A stretch of 64,000 nucleotides of DNA from Flavobacterium sp. (GTDB lineage: Bacteria; Bacteroidota; Bacteroidia; Flavobacteriales; Flavobacteriaceae), in assembly GCF_029945805.1 (NCBI RefSeq), contig NZ_JAQSDH010000045.1, positions 1 to 64,000 of the forward strand. Direction: 5' to 3'. The notes below the pieces were generated by a model, which made no database searches, was not told where the DNA came from, and saw nothing but the letters and a program-made list of their open reading frames with translations. Shown piece after piece: positions 5,945 to 51,670 of the stretch; position 1 is the stretch's first letter, and every line of letters starts with the position of its first letter. Made by a program: the position numbers and the translations under genes.

Positions 5945-6055
5945 TTTTTATAAGCTATTTCCAGCTATCCACTATATCTTTTATAGCTGTCAGTTTTAAA
6001 AAACAGACAACTATAAAAGGATGCCGTTCCTATCTGGGCTAGGGTTTTATGATAA
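5945..6055 (-). repeat. Interspersed palindromic element, copy B
   Basis: On the minus strand the element reads CCTAGCCCAGAT, then GGCATCCTTTTATAG, a loop, CTATAAAAGATATAG and GATAGCTGGAAATAGC. The inner stem CTTTTATAGtTGTC pairs with GACAgCTATAAAAG. It lies between two leftward genes, downstream of the double TonB_C gene and upstream of the T9SS propeller gene. Confidence 0.6.
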
Positions 6056-27130: not shown

Positions 27131-27149
27131 ATTTAACTATAGATTGTAT

Positions 27150-27293
27150 TTAGCCCTGATGGCAGTGGAAATCCTTTTTTTATTTTATGAAAGCATCTCG
27201 AGTGCGCTCGATGTGACAAAAAAAAGATTGCAACGGACAGCAGGAATAGGGTTTATTGAAATGCCCGAACCATTCGCTCCTAAAAAAAAATCC
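27150..27293 (+). repeat. Interspersed palindromic element, copy D
   Basis: The element begins TAGCCCTGATGGCAGTGG, then ATCCTTTTTTT. A central loop carries a CTCGAGTGCGCTCGATGTGACA repeat unit. It ends AAAAAAAGATTGCAACGGACAGCAGG and AATGCCCGAACCATTCGCTCCTAA. The right-hand tail is nearly the same as that of copy E at 44.4 kb. It lies between queA (3' side) and kynU (5' side). Confidence 0.65.
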
Positions 27294-44429: not shown

Positions 44430-44550
44430 CTTTAGGAGCGAACGGCTCGGGCATTTTAGTTCTCTTTATTCCTGCTTTCCGCTACCCTATCTTTGTCAAA
44501 GTTTTAGACTTTAACAAAGATGATTTTCACTCCAATCAGGGCTAGTCTGG
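44430..44550 (-). repeat. Interspersed palindromic element, copy E
   Basis: Read on the minus strand the element begins TAGCCCTGATTGGAG and has an inner stem in which CATCTTTGTtaAAGT pairs with ACTTtgACAAAGATAG. It continues GGTAGCGGAAAGCAGGAAT and ends AATGCCCGAGCCGTTCGCTCCTAA. Its tail is nearly identical to that of copy D. It separates metF (ending at 44634) from the PagL-like gene. Confidence 0.65.
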
Positions 44551-44609: not shown

Positions 44610-44634
44610 GTCACTCAGAGTGCAGTCAAAGGAC
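44610..44634. repeat. Degenerate CTTCGACTGCGCTCAG-type repeat
   Basis: TCACTCAGAGTGCAGTCAAAGGACT is a decayed copy of the dispersed short repeat, abutting the metF stop codon. Confidence 0.4.
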
Positions 44635-45590
44635 TAAAAAACCTCTTTTGCAATCGCCTTAATATTCTCCGCTTTTCCCATTGAATAGTAATGTAGCACA
44701 GGAATTCCAGCCGCAACCAACTCCTTACTTTGTTGCGTACACCATTCGATTCCGATTTGTTTCACATGGTCATTATCTTGTGCCTTCACTACAGCCATAA
44801 TCAAATCATCAGGTAATTCTAAAGAAAACCGGTGCGGAATCAAATTCAGTTGTTTCTTCGTAGCAATAGGTTTCAACCCCGGAATAATCGGAACCGTAAT
44901 TCCAGCTTTCCGACATTTATCCACAAAATCAAAGAACTTCTTATTGTCAAAAAACATTTGTGTGATTATATATTCTGCACCATTTCTGATTTTTTCTTTC
45001 AAAAAATGAATATCGCTATCCAAACTCGGAGCTTCCATGTGTTTCTCGGGATAACCCGAAACTCCGATACAAAAATTCGTTTTCGTTGAATTTTGCAAAT
45101 CTTCATCCAAATAAATTCCGTTATTCAAGTTCGAAATTTGAGTAACCAGTTCACTGGCAAATTGATTTCCTTCCTTTTCGGCTTTGAAATAAGTTTCGCT
45201 TTTCACAGCATCCCCCCGAAGCGCAACCACATTGTCAATTCCTAAAAAATCCAAATCAATTAGTAAATTCTCAGTATCTTCCTTCGTAAAGCCGCCACAT
45301 AAAATATGCGGAATAGCATCAACCGAATATTTATTCTGAATTCCAGCACAAATACCAACCGTTCCTGGTCGTTTTTTTACAATTTTCTTTTGCAATAATC
45401 CGCTAGGCAATTCTTTGTATTCATACTCTTCACGATGATAGGTGACGTCAATAAATGGTGGATTGAATTCCATCAACGGATCAATGCTATCAAAAATCGA
45501 CTGGATGTTTTGGCCTTTCAAAGGCGGTAAAATCTCAAACGAAAACAAAGGTTTTCCGTTGGCGTTTTGGATATGTTGGGTTACTTTCAT
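44634..45590 (-). CDS. metF: 5,10-methylenetetrahydrofolate reductase
   Basis: The 318-residue flavoenzyme makes 5-methyl-THF, the methyl donor for MetH. FSFEILPPLKGQ near the N-terminus holds the catalytic Glu region, VVALRGDAVKSE is the FAD-binding Asp region, and YIITQMFFDNKKFFDFVDKCRKAGI and PIIPGLKPI complete the TIM barrel signature. It is the last gene of the metH-metF transcript, which starts at a SAM-I riboswitch. Between it and the metH C-terminal gene lies a long inverted repeat. Confidence 0.95.
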   Translation of the reverse strand: MKVTQHIQNANGKPLFSFEILPPLKGQNIQSIFDSIDPLMEFNPPFIDVTYHREEYEYKELPSGLLQKKIVKKRPGTVGICAGIQNKYSVDAIPHILCGGFTKEDTENLLIDLDFLGIDNVVALRGDAVKSETYFKAEKEGNQFASELVTQISNLNNGIYLDEDLQNSTKTNFCIGVSGYPEKHMEAPSLDSDIHFLKEKIRNGAEYIITQMFFDNKKFFDFVDKCRKAGITVPIIPGLKPIATKKQLNLIPHRFSLELPDDLIMAVVKAQDNDHVKQIGIEWCTQQSKELVAAGIPVLHYYSMGKAENIKAIAKEVF

Positions 45591-45671: not shown

Positions 45672-48600
45672 TTAATCTGCTATATTCGGCGAAAGCCATT
45701 TTGTTGCCATTTCAGTAGAAATTCCTCTACGTTTGGCATAATCTACTACTTGATCTTCTTTAATTTTTCCGAGACCAAAATACTTGCTTTCTGGATTTCC
45801 AAAATAATATCCCGAAACGGATGATGCGGGCCACATTGCCATGCTTTCGGTTAGTGTTACTCCTATTTCTTGTTCAACGTTTAATAATTTCCAAATCGTT
45901 GGTTTCTCTAAATGGTCTGGACATGCCGGATAACCTGGCGCAGGTCTAATTCCTTTATATTCTTCAGCAATTAAGTCACTATTTGATAAATGTTCGTCAG
46001 CTGCATAACCCCAAATTTCTTTACGAACTTTTAGGTGTAAATATTCAGCAAACGCTTCGGCTAAACGGTCGCCCAATGCTTTTACTAAAATGGAATTGTA
46101 ATCGTCTAATGCTTCTTCAAATTTCGCTGCTTTTTCATCCACACCAAAACCTGTGGTAACGCAAAAACATCCGATGTAATCTTGTATTCCGCTGTCTTTT
46201 GGTGCGATAAAATCCGCCAAGGCAATGTTTGGTGCACCTGCTGTTTTTTGGGATTGTTGTCTTAAAGTCAGGAATTTAGTTATTGAAGGCACTTCGACTG
46301 CGCTCAGTGTGCCAATTTCAATATCGTCGTCGTTTACTGTATTCGCTGGAAATATTCCGACAATTCCTTTAGCGATTAACCATTTTTCATGAACTATTTG
46401 GCTCATCATTTCTTGAGCATCGGCAAATAAACTCGTCGCTTGTTCGCCTACAACGGCATCTGTTAAAATCGCCGGATATTTTCCGTACAATTCCCATGAA
46501 CTGAAAAAAGGTGTCCAATCAATAAAATCAACTAACTCTGAAAGTTCAACTTCAATCGTTTTTGTTCCGATGAAATTTGGTTTTATTGGCGTGAAAGTAT
46601 CCCAATCCAACTTATTTTTATTTTTACGTGCTTGTTCAATCGACAAATAATTTTTATCGCGACTTCTGTTCAAATAACCTTCCCGTAATTTGTCATATTC
46701 CTCCCGAATGGCTTTTACATAACTTCCTTTAGTTTCTGCTTGCAGCAAATTACTCGCAACAGTTACCGCACGTGAAGCATCGTTTACGTGAACTACGGTT
46801 TGTTTGTATTCGGGTGCAATTTTCACAGCGGTATGCGCTCGCGAAGTGGTTGCACCACCAATCATAATGGGAATTTTGATGTTTAGTTTGTCCATTTCTT
46901 TGGCGAGATATACCATTTCGTCAAGCGATGGCGTAATCAATCCGCTTAAACCAATAATATCCACATTATGTTCAATAGCTGCCGCAATAATTTTTTCTGG
47001 CGGAACCATAACACCCAAATCAATGATTTCGAAATTATTACAACCCAAAACTACGGCTACAATATTTTTTCCAATATCATGCACATCGCCTTTTACGGTT
47101 GCCATTAAGACTTTTCCTGCCCCCCCCGCCCCCGAAGGGGGAGCTACCAAGTTGGCGGATATTTTAGTTATAACCTTTTCAAGCTCAAATAAAACTTCGT
47201 TATTTTTGAACCTTATAACTCTATATCCTTCGCTCAGAAGCCATTTAGTTCTTTCAGCATCACTTACTATATTTTCTGGCAATTGATGAATAGACCCATC
47301 AACCTCAATAATTAAATTTTGTTTTAAACATATAAAATCGGCTATATAATTTCCTACTATGTGTTGTCTTCTAAACTTATACCCATCAATTCCTTTGTTG
47401 CTCAAAACATTCCATAATATTTGTTCGGCATCCGTTGGTTTGTTTCTCATATCAAAAGCAAATTTCTTCAACAACCCATAATTGTATGGATTTGCAGTCT
47501 GCCAATGTTGTGAGGTTTTAACTCCCCCTTCGGGGTTTGGGGGGCTTATAAATGGCAACAAATAAGCCACTGCTTTTTTCATTACTCGAGCCGATTTTAC
47601 GACTTGAGGCAAAAACATTTTTCCGCTTCCAAATAAATCGCCAACCACATTCATTCCAGCCATCAGATTGACTTCGATAACTTCGATTGCTTTTTCAGAA
47701 TTTAAACGTGCTTCTTCAACATCAATTTCGATAAATTCGTCAATTCCTTTTACTAAGGAATGGGTTAATCGTTCTTGAATTGTGCCGCTTCGCCATTCTT
47801 GAATTGCTTTTTCATTGACTTTAAAATCGCCTTTGAAGGTTTCAGCTAAATCCAACAATCTTTCCGTGGCATCTTCTCTTCTATTCAGCAAAACATCTTC
47901 GACGTGTTCCAGTAAATTTTTATCTATTTCATCATAAATTTCGAGCATTTCCGGATTTACAATTCCCATCGTCATTCCGTTTTGAATCGCATGATATAAA
48001 AATGCCGAATGCATGGCTTCGCGTACTTTGTCATTGCCTCGAAACGAGAACGAAACGTTACTTACGCCTCCAGAAATATTAGCAAATGGAAGATTTTCAC
48101 GAATCCATTTTGTAGCTCTGAAAAAATCTAATGCGTTTAGTTTGTGTTCGTCCATTCCGGTTGCCACTGGAAAAATATTGGGATCAAAAATGATGTCTTG
48201 TGCTGGGAATTTCACAACATTCACCAGAATATCATAACTTCTTTTGCAAATTTCTATACGTCTTTCATAAGTATCAGCTTGACCATTTTCATCAAAAGCC
48301 ATAACAATTACGGCAGCGCCATATCGCTTTACCAATTTGGCATGATGAATGAAGGTTGCTTCTCCTTCTTTTAATGAAATAGAATTGACAACACCTTTTC
48401 CTTGAATCACTTTAAGTCCGGCTTCGATAATTTCCCATTTGGAACTGTCAACCATAACTGGAACTCTGGCGATATCGGGTTCAGCTGCGATTAAATTAAG
48501 GAATTTAGTCATCGCATAAACGCCGTCCAACATTCCTTCGTCCATATTGATGTCGATGATTTGGGCGCCGCCTTCCACCTGTTCTCTAGCAACCGAAAGC

Positions 48601-48755
48601 GCTTCATTGTATTTTTCTTCTTTTATTAAACGCAGAAATTTACGGGAACCCGTTACATTGGTTCGTTCGCCAACATTCACGAAAATGGATTCCTCGTTAA
48701 CGAAAAGTGGCTCTAAACCAGATAACTGTAAATTTATTTTATTTGTTCTTGGCAT
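45672..48755 (-). CDS. metH: Methionine synthase, folate/B12/activation part, with in-frame DUF559 insertion
   Basis: This 1027-residue protein (from MPRTNK; the ORF's first six residues are repeat-derived) is cobalamin-dependent methionine synthase without its homocysteine domain. Order: a pterin-binding barrel ([14 protein letters not shown]... to about residue 300), the B12 cap (about 305-400), the insertion, the B12 Rossmann domain with GDVHDIGKN (His ligand to cobalt), then the SAM-dependent activation domain with [12 protein letters not shown]. The insertion (about 142 residues between YLLPFI and [10 protein letters not shown]) is a DUF559 domain, described separately. A second, small insert ([10 protein letters not shown]) comes from a dispersed repeat. 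All catalytic motifs are intact. Confidence 0.93.
46288..46314. repeat. CTTCGACTGCGCTCAG repeat inside metH
   Basis: GGCACTTCGACTGCGCTCAGTGTGCC is a copy of the dispersed repeat in the activation-domain coding region, read as [10 protein letters not shown]. Its ends (GGCAC and GTGCC) are complementary. Confidence 0.85.
47119..47546 (-). mobile_element. DUF559 nuclease-like mini-element inserted in metH
   Basis: About 428 bp interrupt metH without breaking frame. The borders are imperfect inverted repeats: GCCCCCCAAACCCCGAAGGGGGAG at the 5' side, and GCCCCCCCCGCCCCCGAAGGGGGAG when the other end is read in reverse. Each also forms a small hairpin with CCCC(C)GAAGGGG(G). The interior encodes a DUF559 domain of the Vsr/PD-(D/E)XK type: [47 protein letters not shown] (core Asp, Glu-x-Asp and His), and [10 protein letters not shown]. 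It lies on the same strand and frame as metH, at the linker between the B12 cap and Rossmann domains. The mobility is inferred; no flanking duplication is evident. Confidence 0.75.
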
Positions 48756-48830
48756 ATTTTCATTGCGAGACACGTAGTACTCTCGGCTTGTTTTTACTTT
48801 TATTTTGAACCATTAAGAAATTAAGATTCA

Positions 48831-49826
48831 TTAAGGGTAAATTATTGTTTCTATTTTTCTTGGTTTGAATTGCGCTGCAGCTTCTGCGATTAATTTTATA
48901 TGTTCTGGAGTTGTTCCGCAACAACCGCCGATGATGTTTATTAAATCATCTTTTAAATATTCTTTGATTAAAGTCTGCATTTCTTCTGGTGTTTGGTCGT
49001 ATTGTCCGAAGGCGTTGGGTAAACCAGCATTTGGATGCGCTGAAATATTGAGTTGTGTATTATGAGCTAATCGTTTTAAATACGGTTTTAATTGATCGGC
49101 ACCCAAGGCACAATTGAAACCAATACTTAACAAGTCGATGTGCGCAATAGAAATTAAAAATGCTTCTACGGTTTGGCCTGAAAGTGTTCTTCCTGAAGCA
49201 TCGGTAATTGTTCCGGAAACCATTACTGGAATATCGATATTGCGTTCTTCTTTTACTTCTTCGATAGCGAAAAGTGCTGCTTTGGCGTTTAAGGTGTCGA
49301 AAATAGTTTCCACTAATAAAACATCGCAACCGCCGTCTATTAAGGCTTCTACTTGCTGTTTGTAAGCGATTCGCAAATCGTCAAAAGTTACGGCACGAAA
49401 TCCAGGGTCATTTACATCGGGAGACATGGATGCGGTTCGGTTGGTTGGTCCGATGGAACCGGCTACAAAACGCGGTTTATCGGTGAATTCGTCGGCAACT
49501 TCACGCGCGATTTTGGCAGATTGGTAGTTTAGTTCGTATACCAAATCTTCTAAGTGATAATCGGACATTCCTATTGTGGTTCCTGAGAATGTATTGGTTT
49601 CAACAATATCGGCACCCGCCTGAAAATACAAACGGTGGACTTGCTTAACCGCTTCGGGTTGTGTGATAGAAAGTAAGTCGTTATTCCCTTTTAATGGATG
49701 TGGAAAATCTTTGAATCGTTCTCCTCGGAAATCTTCTTCTGAGAAGTTGTAGCGTTGCAACATGGTTCCCATAGCTCCGTCGAGGACTAAGATTCGTTGT
49801 TGGATTGCTTGTTGAATTTTTGACAT
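48831..49826 (-). CDS. metH: Homocysteine S-methyltransferase (MetH N-terminal domain as separate gene)
   Basis: This 331-residue protein (start MSKIQQ; the ORF's five upstream residues are less likely) is the homocysteine-binding barrel of methionine synthase. Motifs are LDGAMGTMLQ near the N-terminus, GSIGPTNRTAS, VETIFDTLNAKAALFA, and the zinc Cys residues in GFNCALGAD and IGGCCGTTPEH. It moves the methyl group from B12 on the partner subunit to homocysteine. The split from the C-terminal part (75-bp gap) is normal in Bacteroidetes. It is first in the operon under the SAM-I riboswitch. Confidence 0.93.
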   Translation of the reverse strand: MSKIQQAIQQRILVLDGAMGTMLQRYNFSEEDFRGERFKDFPHPLKGNNDLLSITQPEAVKQVHRLYFQAGADIVETNTFSGTTIGMSDYHLEDLVYELNYQSAKIAREVADEFTDKPRFVAGSIGPTNRTASMSPDVNDPGFRAVTFDDLRIAYKQQVEALIDGGCDVLLVETIFDTLNAKAALFAIEEVKEERNIDIPVMVSGTITDASGRTLSGQTVEAFLISIAHIDLLSIGFNCALGADQLKPYLKRLAHNTQLNISAHPNAGLPNAFGQYDQTPEEMQTLIKEYLKDDLINIIGGCCGTTPEHIKLIAEAAAQFKPRKIETIIYP

Positions 49827-49860
49827 AAATATTAATTTCACAGAGATACACAGAGTTTTT

Positions 49861-49986
49861 TAGCCCTGATGGAAGCGGCATCCTTTTTTGTTTTAGAAAA
49901 AGCCCTTCGACTGCGCTCAGGGTGACAAAACAAAAAAGATATAGCGTACAGCAGGATTAGCTTCTGAAAATTCAGAAGGTTCTTAA
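49861..49986 (+). repeat. Interspersed palindromic element, copy F
   Basis: The element starts TAGCCCTGATGGAAGCGGCATCC. Its inner stem pairs TTTTTTGTTTT with AAAACAAAAAA around a loop carrying the CTTCGACTGCGCTCAGGGTGACA repeat. It continues GATATAGCGTACAGCAGGATTAGC and ends in the palindrome CTTCTGAAAATTCAGAAG. It is transcribed in the 5' leader of metH, between the SAM-I aptamer and the start codon. Confidence 0.7.
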
Positions 49987-50028
49987 AAAAATATAGGTTA
50001 TCGTGGAAAGTGAGAAGAATTTCTCGGG

Positions 50029-50133
50029 GTTATCTTTGTCTGAATAAATTCGGACTAGAATGTAGCACCTTCTTTTGGTAAAGGGTTGCTAAGCTTTCAA
50101 CGGGTCTATTCCCTCCAGCTTTCGTGATAACAA
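50029..50133 (-). ncRNA. SAM-I (S-box) riboswitch upstream of metH-metF
   Basis: On the minus strand the sequence has the S-box core in order: TTATCACGAAAG, GGAGGGA, GACCCGTTGAAA, AGCAACCC, AAGGTGCTAC, and the P1 closing GATAAC that pairs with GTTATC at the 5' end. These are the SAM-binding and kink-turn parts of the SAM-I class. It is about 200 bases upstream of metH. A second GATAACC copy (49996-50002) downstream could compete for P1 pairing, and GAGAAATTCTTCTC forms a small hairpin; the actual switch mechanism is not clear. Confidence 0.92.
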
Positions 50134-50154
50134 GCAATAAATTTATGAACACTG

Positions 50155-50185
50155 CAAAGTAATGACATAGAAATTTATTTTGCAA
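50155..50185 (-). promoter_or_regulatory. Promoter for the SAM-I/metH transcript
   Basis: On the minus strand TTG (50183-50185) and TACTTTG (50155-50161) are 21 bases apart. Transcription would start about 10-20 bases before the aptamer. Confidence 0.6.
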
Positions 50186-50223
50186 CAGTTTTTTTAGAAT
50201 ACTAAAAAATAAGTTAGAATAAT

Positions 50224-50252
50224 TTGAAATTCAATTACATTTTATACATTTG
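50224..50252 (+). promoter_or_regulatory. Promoter for metK
   Basis: TTG (50224-50226) and TACATTTG (50245-50252) are 18 bases apart, a good match to the Bacteroidetes consensus. The predicted leader is about 160 bases and includes the SAM-II-like motif. Confidence 0.7.
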
Positions 50253-50268
50253 CACTCGAGAATAATAA

Positions 50269-50318
50269 GAGGAAAAATTTGAACTGATTGCAACCTCGTT
50301 AAAAAAATGCTAAAGCAG
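50269..50318 (+). ncRNA. SAM-II-like riboswitch upstream of metK
   Basis: The leader reads GAGG, a loop with ATTTGAACTGATTGCA, CCTC, GTTAAA and then GCTAAAGCAG. This order (P1, loop with conserved ATTGCA, P1', TAAA-rich linker, GCTAAA pairing back into the loop) is that of the SAM-II pseudoknot class. CTG in the loop can pair with CAG at the 3' end. It is the right gene for SAM feedback. About 100 bases separate it from the start codon, more than usual for this class. Confidence 0.75.
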
Positions 50319-50361
50319 CAACTCTCCTTTAGTACCCTTGCAATCCACTTTTTTTCTTTTT
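50286..50361 (+). promoter_or_regulatory. Alternative hairpin and T run in the metK leader
   Basis: GATTGCAA (50286-50293) inside the SAM-II-like loop is the exact complement of TTGCAATC (50338-50345), and CTAAAG (50310-50315) pairs with CTTTAG (50327-50332). This competing structure uses residues needed for the aptamer and is followed by TTTTTTTCTTTTT. It looks like a terminator or switch structure exclusive with SAM binding. Confidence 0.55.
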
Positions 50362-50380: not shown

Positions 50381-50401
50381 ATGCTGAACTAAATTCAGCA
50401 T
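50381..50401 (+). promoter_or_regulatory. Hairpin before the metK start
   Basis: ATGCTGAA and TTCAGCAT form a perfect 8-bp stem with a CTAAA loop, ending 18 bases before the metK ATG. There is no T run, so it probably acts on translation or message stability. Confidence 0.6.
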
Positions 50402-50419: not shown

Positions 50420-51670
50420 ATGGCATATTTATTTACGTCGGAGTCAGTGAGTGAAGGACATCCAGACAAAGTTGCAGACCAAATTTCTGATGCATTAATT
50501 GATAACTTTTTGGCTTTTGACGCTGATTCGAAAGTGGCTTGCGAAACTTTAGTAACTACGGGTCAGGTAATTTTGGCTGGAGAAGTAAAATCAAGTACGT
50601 ATCTTGATGTACAGCAAATTGCAAGAGAAGTAATCCGAAAGATTGGATATACTAAAAGTGAGTATATGTTTGAAGCGGATTCTTGTGGTGTACTTTCTGC
50701 GATTCACGAGCAGTCTGCTGATATTAATCAAGGTGTAGACAGAGCGAGCAAAGAAGAGCAAGGTGCTGGTGACCAAGGAATGATGTTTGGTTATGCAACT
50801 AATGAAACGGAGAACTACATGCCTTTGGCTTTAGATTTATCTCATGCTTTGTTGATTGAATTGGCCAACTTAAGAAGAGAAAATAAAGAAATAACCTATT
50901 TGCGTCCGGATGCAAAATCTCAAGTTACTTTAGAGTATTCTGATGATAACAAACCGGTTCGAATTGATGCCATTGTAATTTCTACGCAGCATGATGATTT
51001 TGCCGCTGAAGCTGAAATGTTAGCTAAAATTAAATCCGATTTAGTTTCAATTTTGATTCCAAGAGTTAAGGCAAAATATCCTCAATACGTTCATTTATTT
51101 AACGACAAAATTACGTATCACATCAACCCAACTGGAAAATTTGTTATTGGTGGTCCACACGGAGATACCGGTTTAACAGGGCGAAAAATTATTGTGGATA
51201 CGTATGGTGGAAAAGGAGCTCATGGTGGTGGCGCTTTCTCTGGAAAAGATCCGAGTAAAGTGGATAGAAGTGCTGCTTATGCGACAAGACATATCGCTAA
51301 AAACCTAGTTGCTGCAGGAGTATGTGATGAAATTTTAGTTCAAGTTTCCTATGCTATTGGAGTGGCAAAACCAACTTCGATCAACGTAGTAACTTATGGA
51401 ACTTCAAAAGTGAACATGACTGATGGCGAAATTAGTAAAGTGGTTGAGAACGTATTTGATATGCGTCCGTACTTTATAGAACAACGTTTGAAATTGAGAA
51501 ATCCAATTTACAGTGAAACTGCTGCTTATGGTCACATGGGAAGAAAACCAGAAACGGTTACTAAAACTTTTCAATTACCAAACGGCGCTCCAAAAACCGT
51601 AACTGTTGAGTTGTTTACTTGGGAAAAATTAGATTATGTAGCTCAAGTAAAAGCGGCTTTCGGATTGTAA
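50420..51670 (+). CDS. metK: S-adenosylmethionine synthetase
   Basis: The 416-residue enzyme makes SAM from methionine and ATP. Motifs are [14 protein letters not shown] (about residues 13-26), [12 protein letters not shown] (about 114-125), and [19 protein letters not shown] (about 270-290), covering ATP, K+ and Mg2+ sites. Length is slightly above E. coli MetK, as usual for Bacteroidetes. It is monocistronic with a strong promoter, a SAM-II-like leader and a terminator. It faces away from the metH operon. Confidence 0.97.

Follow-up and report, generated by a model that had tools for sequence, protein, structure and literature searches.

Genes, promoters, and SAM aptamers at the locus

The window, i.e. 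the whole 64-kb stretch of DNA analysed here, contains a divergent intergenic region with metH and metF on the minus strand and metK on the plus strand. metK (50420-51670, +) encodes an S-adenosylmethionine synthetase of 416 aa with the domains PF00438, PF02772, and PF02773. metH (45672-49841, -) consists of two ORFs, one for the homocysteine S-methyltransferase part (48831-49841; PF02574, E = 1.6e-100; likely ATG at 49826) and one for the pterin/B12/activation part (45672-48773; PF00809, PF02607, PF02310, and PF02965), a two-part order also found in same-genus loci, and metF, encoding methylenetetrahydrofolate reductase, lies at 44634-45590 (-; PF02219, E = 1e-65). The C-terminal metH ORF carries an in-frame insertion of ~139 residues (47130-47546, -) between two B12-binding regions, which includes a DUF559 endonuclease-like domain (PF04480, E = 9.4e-34), the sole DUF559 match in the genome. 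The MetH copies compared from the same genus do not cover the insertion, and inverted repeats (CCCCGAAGGGGGAG/CTCCCCCTTCGGGG) are found at its flanks.

A sequence-only reading of this region had proposed two unrelated SAM riboswitch classes arranged back to back, a SAM-I aptamer preceding metH on the minus strand and a SAM-II-type pseudoknot preceding metK on the plus strand, and had named RF00162 and SAM_alpha (RF00521) as the families to compare. We scanned the whole window with the Rfam covariance models, whose gathering cut-offs are 44.4 bits for RF00162, 44 bits for RF01726, and 36 bits for RF00521. In the metH-metF leader a SAM-I aptamer was matched over its full length (50027-50133, -; RF00162, 72.5 bits, E = 4.9e-15, model positions 1-108), and on the opposite strand, 96 nt upstream of metK, cmscan identified a full-length SAM-II long-loop aptamer (50263-50323, +; RF01726, 68.5 bits, E = 4.2e-11, model positions 1-60) including the conserved UGCUAAAGCAG of this family. 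Both scores are far above the respective cut-offs, and neither class has a second copy in the genome (3.33-Mb assembly scanned). Thus, the two classes, their orientation, and the genes behind them are as proposed, and so is the idea that one intergenic region holds a sensor for methionine supply and a different one for SAM synthesis. The assignment to SAM_alpha, however, did not hold, as the metK-side element reaches just 17.3 bits with RF00521; a poor SAM_alpha score had been named as an argument against a SAM-II element, but the SAM-II claim stands because the element belongs to RF01726. It is a SAM-II pseudoknot of the Bacteroidetes long-loop family, i.e. of the same superclass as SAM_alpha but of another family. 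With SAM_alpha (Corbino 2005, PMC1273637) it shares the kind of pseudoknot and the presumed ligand, differing in its score below the 36-bit cut-off and in that no intrinsic terminator was recognised in its leader. Both aptamers presumably bind SAM.

Promoter-like boxes were read from the sequence upstream of both aptamers. On the metK side these are a TTG at 50224-50226 and TACATTTG at 50245-50252 (+), and on the metH side a TTG at 50185-50183 and TTACTTTG at 50162-50155 (-), which, with a 20-nt spacer, are a near-match to the flavobacterial TTG/TAnnTTTG promoter. The two sets of boxes point in opposite directions, away from one another, and the two upstream TTG boxes are separated by 38 nt, in agreement with the ~40 bases estimated previously. 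A TAnnTTTG box is present just upstream of SAM-II in 129/130 genomes, as compared to 3.5% of shuffled sequences.

A downstream strand matches the aptamer 5' half in both leaders

In the SAM-I leader the strand 49996-50020 (-; ATTCTTCTCACTTTCCACGATAACC) is predicted to form a duplex of -16.2 kcal/mol with the aptamer's 5' half (50110-50132, -), i.e. the 5' strands of P1, J1/2, and P2. Over 96 leaders this pairing, which extends to up to 26 consecutive pairs, has a duplex energy of -18.6 kcal/mol with the own aptamer, -16.3 kcal/mol with swapped partners, and -11.8 kcal/mol with shuffled sequences (own vs swapped, z = -9.0).

The metK leader is organised similarly. The strand 50338-50361 (+; TTGCAATCCACTTTTTTTCTTTTT) folds onto the SAM-II 5' half (50267-50293, +; AAGAGGAAAAA...GATTGCAA) with a duplex energy of -16.0 kcal/mol, and in the 128 genomes compared the energies are -17.3, -15.5, and -10.3 kcal/mol for own, swapped, and shuffled aptamers, respectively (z = -10.7). 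The strand is mostly located 15-45 nt upstream of the start codon; in most genera GTCAAATC is paired with GATTTGAC, and in the window TTGCAATC is paired with GATTGCAA. An exchange between a G-C and an A-U pair covaries between the two strands (Fisher p = 2.5e-7), and several singleton variants are compensated (e.g. GAATAATTTGGTC/GACCAAATTATTC, GCTTGCA/TGCAAGC, and TTTGGCTGAT/ATCAGCCAAA). In the MFE fold a second motif, CTTTAG (50327-50332, +), is complementary to the aptamer 3' strand CTAAAG (50310-50315), a pairing for which the same own-versus-swapped test gave no covariation (z = 0.9). The influence of shared ancestry is limited, not removed, in the swap tests of both classes, though nearly each sampled family genome represents a different genus. 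The comparisons indicate that in both classes the downstream strand and the aptamer 5' half coevolve. New here is a conserved downstream strand that, with support from these coevolution tests, would be able to capture the aptamer 5' half in both leaders. As separate features of the metK leader we note that, at 96 nt, it is longer in the window than in most relatives, and that a perfect hairpin (ATGCTGAA/TTCAGCAT) lies at 50381-50401, just 5' of the metK start.

These pairings suggest how both leaders might respond to SAM. At low SAM the downstream strand would capture the aptamer 5' half and the gene would be expressed; in the presence of SAM the aptamer would form, the downstream strand would be freed, and expression would fall, so that SAM would repress both metH and metK. 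We regard it as likely that the divergent region houses two unrelated SAM sensors that would feed back on two arms of one pathway, methionine synthesis by metH-metF (SAM-I) and SAM synthesis by metK (SAM-II).

The Gram-positive SAM-I platform consists of a terminator and an antiterminator, with pairing to the P1 3' strand. The element of the window resembles this S-box type (RF00162) in its full aptamer match and its position before a methionine synthesis operon, but differs in that the downstream strand would capture the aptamer 5' half instead of forming a terminator/antiterminator pair. Likewise, the metK-side aptamer is without visible difference from the SAM-II long-loop riboswitch (RF01726; Weinberg 2010, PMC2864571), with which it shares the full aptamer match, the occurrence in Bacteroidetes, and the position before metK, whereas the Rfam model does not extend to the coevolving anti-aptamer strand.

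Distribution of the two classes in the Flavobacteriaceae

The arrangement is common across the Flavobacteriaceae and not peculiar to one genome, as a comparison with relatives, suggested along with the original reading, revealed. In a survey of 151 family genomes RF01726 was matched in 143 and RF00162 in 120, and by our own count from the two match lists both classes occur together in 116. Within the genus SAM-II was found in 59 and SAM-I in 50 of 61 genomes. In a sample of 248 genomes of the phylum SAM-I is widespread (209 genomes), whereas the SAM-II long loop (39 genomes) is almost wholly confined to the Flavobacteriaceae, their order, and their class; SAM-II therefore looks like a later addition relative to SAM-I. 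We also considered a replacement of SAM-I by SAM-II at metK and rejected it, having found no SAM-I beside metK outside the family among the phylum-sample matches listed.

The two classes are split by gene. metK follows SAM-II at 129/130 loci inspected, the exception being genome G004, which is without a SAM-I match and has two SAM-II elements, one ahead of a metY-type gene and the other ahead of a gene for a membrane protein. At 64 family loci the gene behind SAM-I is a metY/cystathionine-synthase-like gene (33), metH (20), metX (10), or an OsmC-like gene followed by metH (1), and never metK (0/64). These genes were named by start motifs and relatedness to the proteins of the window, not by a per-gene family scan, and the SAM-I leaders are a sample obtained by a sequence-pattern search among the loci listed, which missed some loci, e.g. 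that of G039. This division of labour by gene between SAM-I and SAM-II recurs over most of the family.

By our own count SAM-I and SAM-II lie head to head less than ~350 nt apart in ~20 family genomes, with metY-, metX-, or metH-type genes behind SAM-I, and metH/metK pairs of the type found in the window occur in the same-genus genomes G190, G189, and G193. The head-to-head placement probably reflects nothing more than synteny of the met-gene neighbourhood, without regulatory meaning of its own and with each riboswitch acting in cis only, since the two elements lie anywhere from ~130 nt to several kb apart and SAM-I is followed by different genes (metY, metX, or metH). No counter-evidence to this explanation was found, and cis action is to be expected; the divergent orientation is retained in the same-genus cases, which we compared by eye in tables, and this, too, is explicable by synteny alone.

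A survey from 2007 reported both classes in the Bacteroidetes as a phylum but no single species with both (Barrick and Breaker 2007, PMC2258182), a statement that is now updated by the 116/151 family genomes, for which the later RF01726 model was used. We found no paper on the SAM-I/SAM-II pair in the open-access literature; the parts are known, and it is the arrangement that is notable. Unrelated folds for one ligand are usually discussed between lineages, but here both coexist in one genome, facing each other and split by gene, and do so in most of the family, making the two-sensor question testable in one cell, with the same ligand pool, two sensors, and two outputs. SAM-I affinities are in the nanomolar range in Bacillus. 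For SAM-II an affinity of ~1 µM was determined in Agrobacterium (PMC1273637). By analogy, the two classes might be tuned to different SAM levels. A two-tier feedback, in which a tight SAM-I shuts methionine supply first and a weaker SAM-II shuts metK last, with the class fixed by gene family-wide and both aptamers having converged on the same 5'-half-capture platform, would be in line with such tuning but is a speculative proposal that we consider unlikely to hold in full.

Three small genomes without SAM-I match (G004, G053, and G082; L162, L163, and L164) have an extra SAM-II, which precedes by 43-540 nt the gene for a small membrane protein (MNKINISYVVIISL... type). This protein is a candidate transporter with a link to methionine or a cofactor.

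Predicted output of the two switches

As a proxy for the SAM-bound state we removed the aptamer from the fold and compared the mean unpaired probability of the start codon. For SAM-I leaders the accessibility decreased from 0.37 to 0.16 at metY starts (20 lower, 4 higher, n = 33) and from 0.38 to 0.23 at metH starts (12 lower, 2 higher, n = 20). In G190, which has the same head-to-head pair as the window, it dropped from 0.54 to 0.01 via ACATATAA/TTATATGT. The strands of the start-codon pairing show modest coevolution (z = -3.4 overall, -2.0 for metH, and -1.0 for metY). In most relatives the strand freed from SAM-I is thus predicted to pair with the metY or metH start, which would turn translation off. 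Such a design is consistent with the finding that translation initiation in this phylum does not use Shine-Dalgarno sequences and is readily affected by structure near the start (PMC6847099).

When the SAM-II aptamer was removed from metK leaders, the accessibility of the region -10 to +6 was lower in 33 and higher in 6 of 128 leaders, and that of the AUG alone was lower in 40 and higher in 24, with no drop for metK of the window. The predicted change is small over the 128 leaders and absent from the window, so that start-codon sequestration is at most a weak candidate for the metK output. We also asked if the anti-aptamer helix and the T-run at 50349-50361 constitute an intrinsic terminator, in which case SAM would turn metK on, as TTGCAATC has TTTTTTTCTTTTT behind it in the window. 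Taking a terminator to be a G+C-rich hairpin with an unpaired U-run behind it, we recognised none after the helix on reading folds and sequences. Read in the same way, the T-run is base-paired with AAGAGGAAAAA in the aptamer 5' strand, several genus relatives have TTTTTCCTC in its place, which is complementary to GAGGAAAAA, and the T-run is absent from most family leaders. Folds and relatives thus argue against an intrinsic terminator in the metK leader, making it highly improbable.

With a weak effect at the start region and no terminator recognised, control of metK might be exerted at the level of transcription by Rho: SAM would free a C/U-rich strand serving as Rho entry site, which the anti-aptamer duplex would hide in the absence of SAM. 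The leader 3' of the aptamer contains 22% C, 11% G, and 38% U, and this model would accommodate both the missing terminator and the hardly changed access to the start region. The leader comprises just ~40-110 nt, however, and composition is a weak indicator in AT-rich genomes, so that we regard Rho-mediated control as rather unlikely. The output step of the SAM-II switch at metK may be translation, Rho-dependent termination, or RNA stability.

The metH leader of this species and Flavo-1

In the window the metH start is open in both folds (0.64 with and 0.66 without the aptamer), so that it is predicted to be uncoupled from SAM-I in this species. Between the anti-aptamer strand and the metH start lies a Flavo-1 repeat (49858-49962, +; RF01705, 72.0 bits), antisense to the metH leader, and the leader 3' of the SAM-I aptamer comprises 202 nt vs 74 nt in G190. 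SAM-I might thus have lost control of metH through the Flavo-1 repeat that stands between switch and start codon. The 90 Flavo-1 matches in the genome mark a dispersed repeat, and G193 (L246), which has a similarly long leader, is likewise predicted to be uncoupled. On the other hand, the argument is built on folding models, and a same-genus leader of 298 nt (G176, L248) retains a predicted drop from 0.63 to 0.27; length alone is therefore not decisive for coupling. Moreover, the window has kept both the aptamer and the anti-aptamer strand intact, which points to selection that is still at work or to a different output step. On balance we consider a loss of control by Flavo-1 plausible, if slightly less probable than its opposite; with the aptamer intact, the switch would be either recently uncoupled or acting by another step.

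Flavo-1 itself looks more like a dispersed repeat than like a lone sRNA gene, with five matches in the 64 kb (464-536, 5954-6044, 27148-27251, 44464-44547, and 49858-49962). The loop of the copy in the metH leader contains the palindrome CCCTTCGACTGCGCTCAGGGTGAC, which may be another repeat nested within the first.
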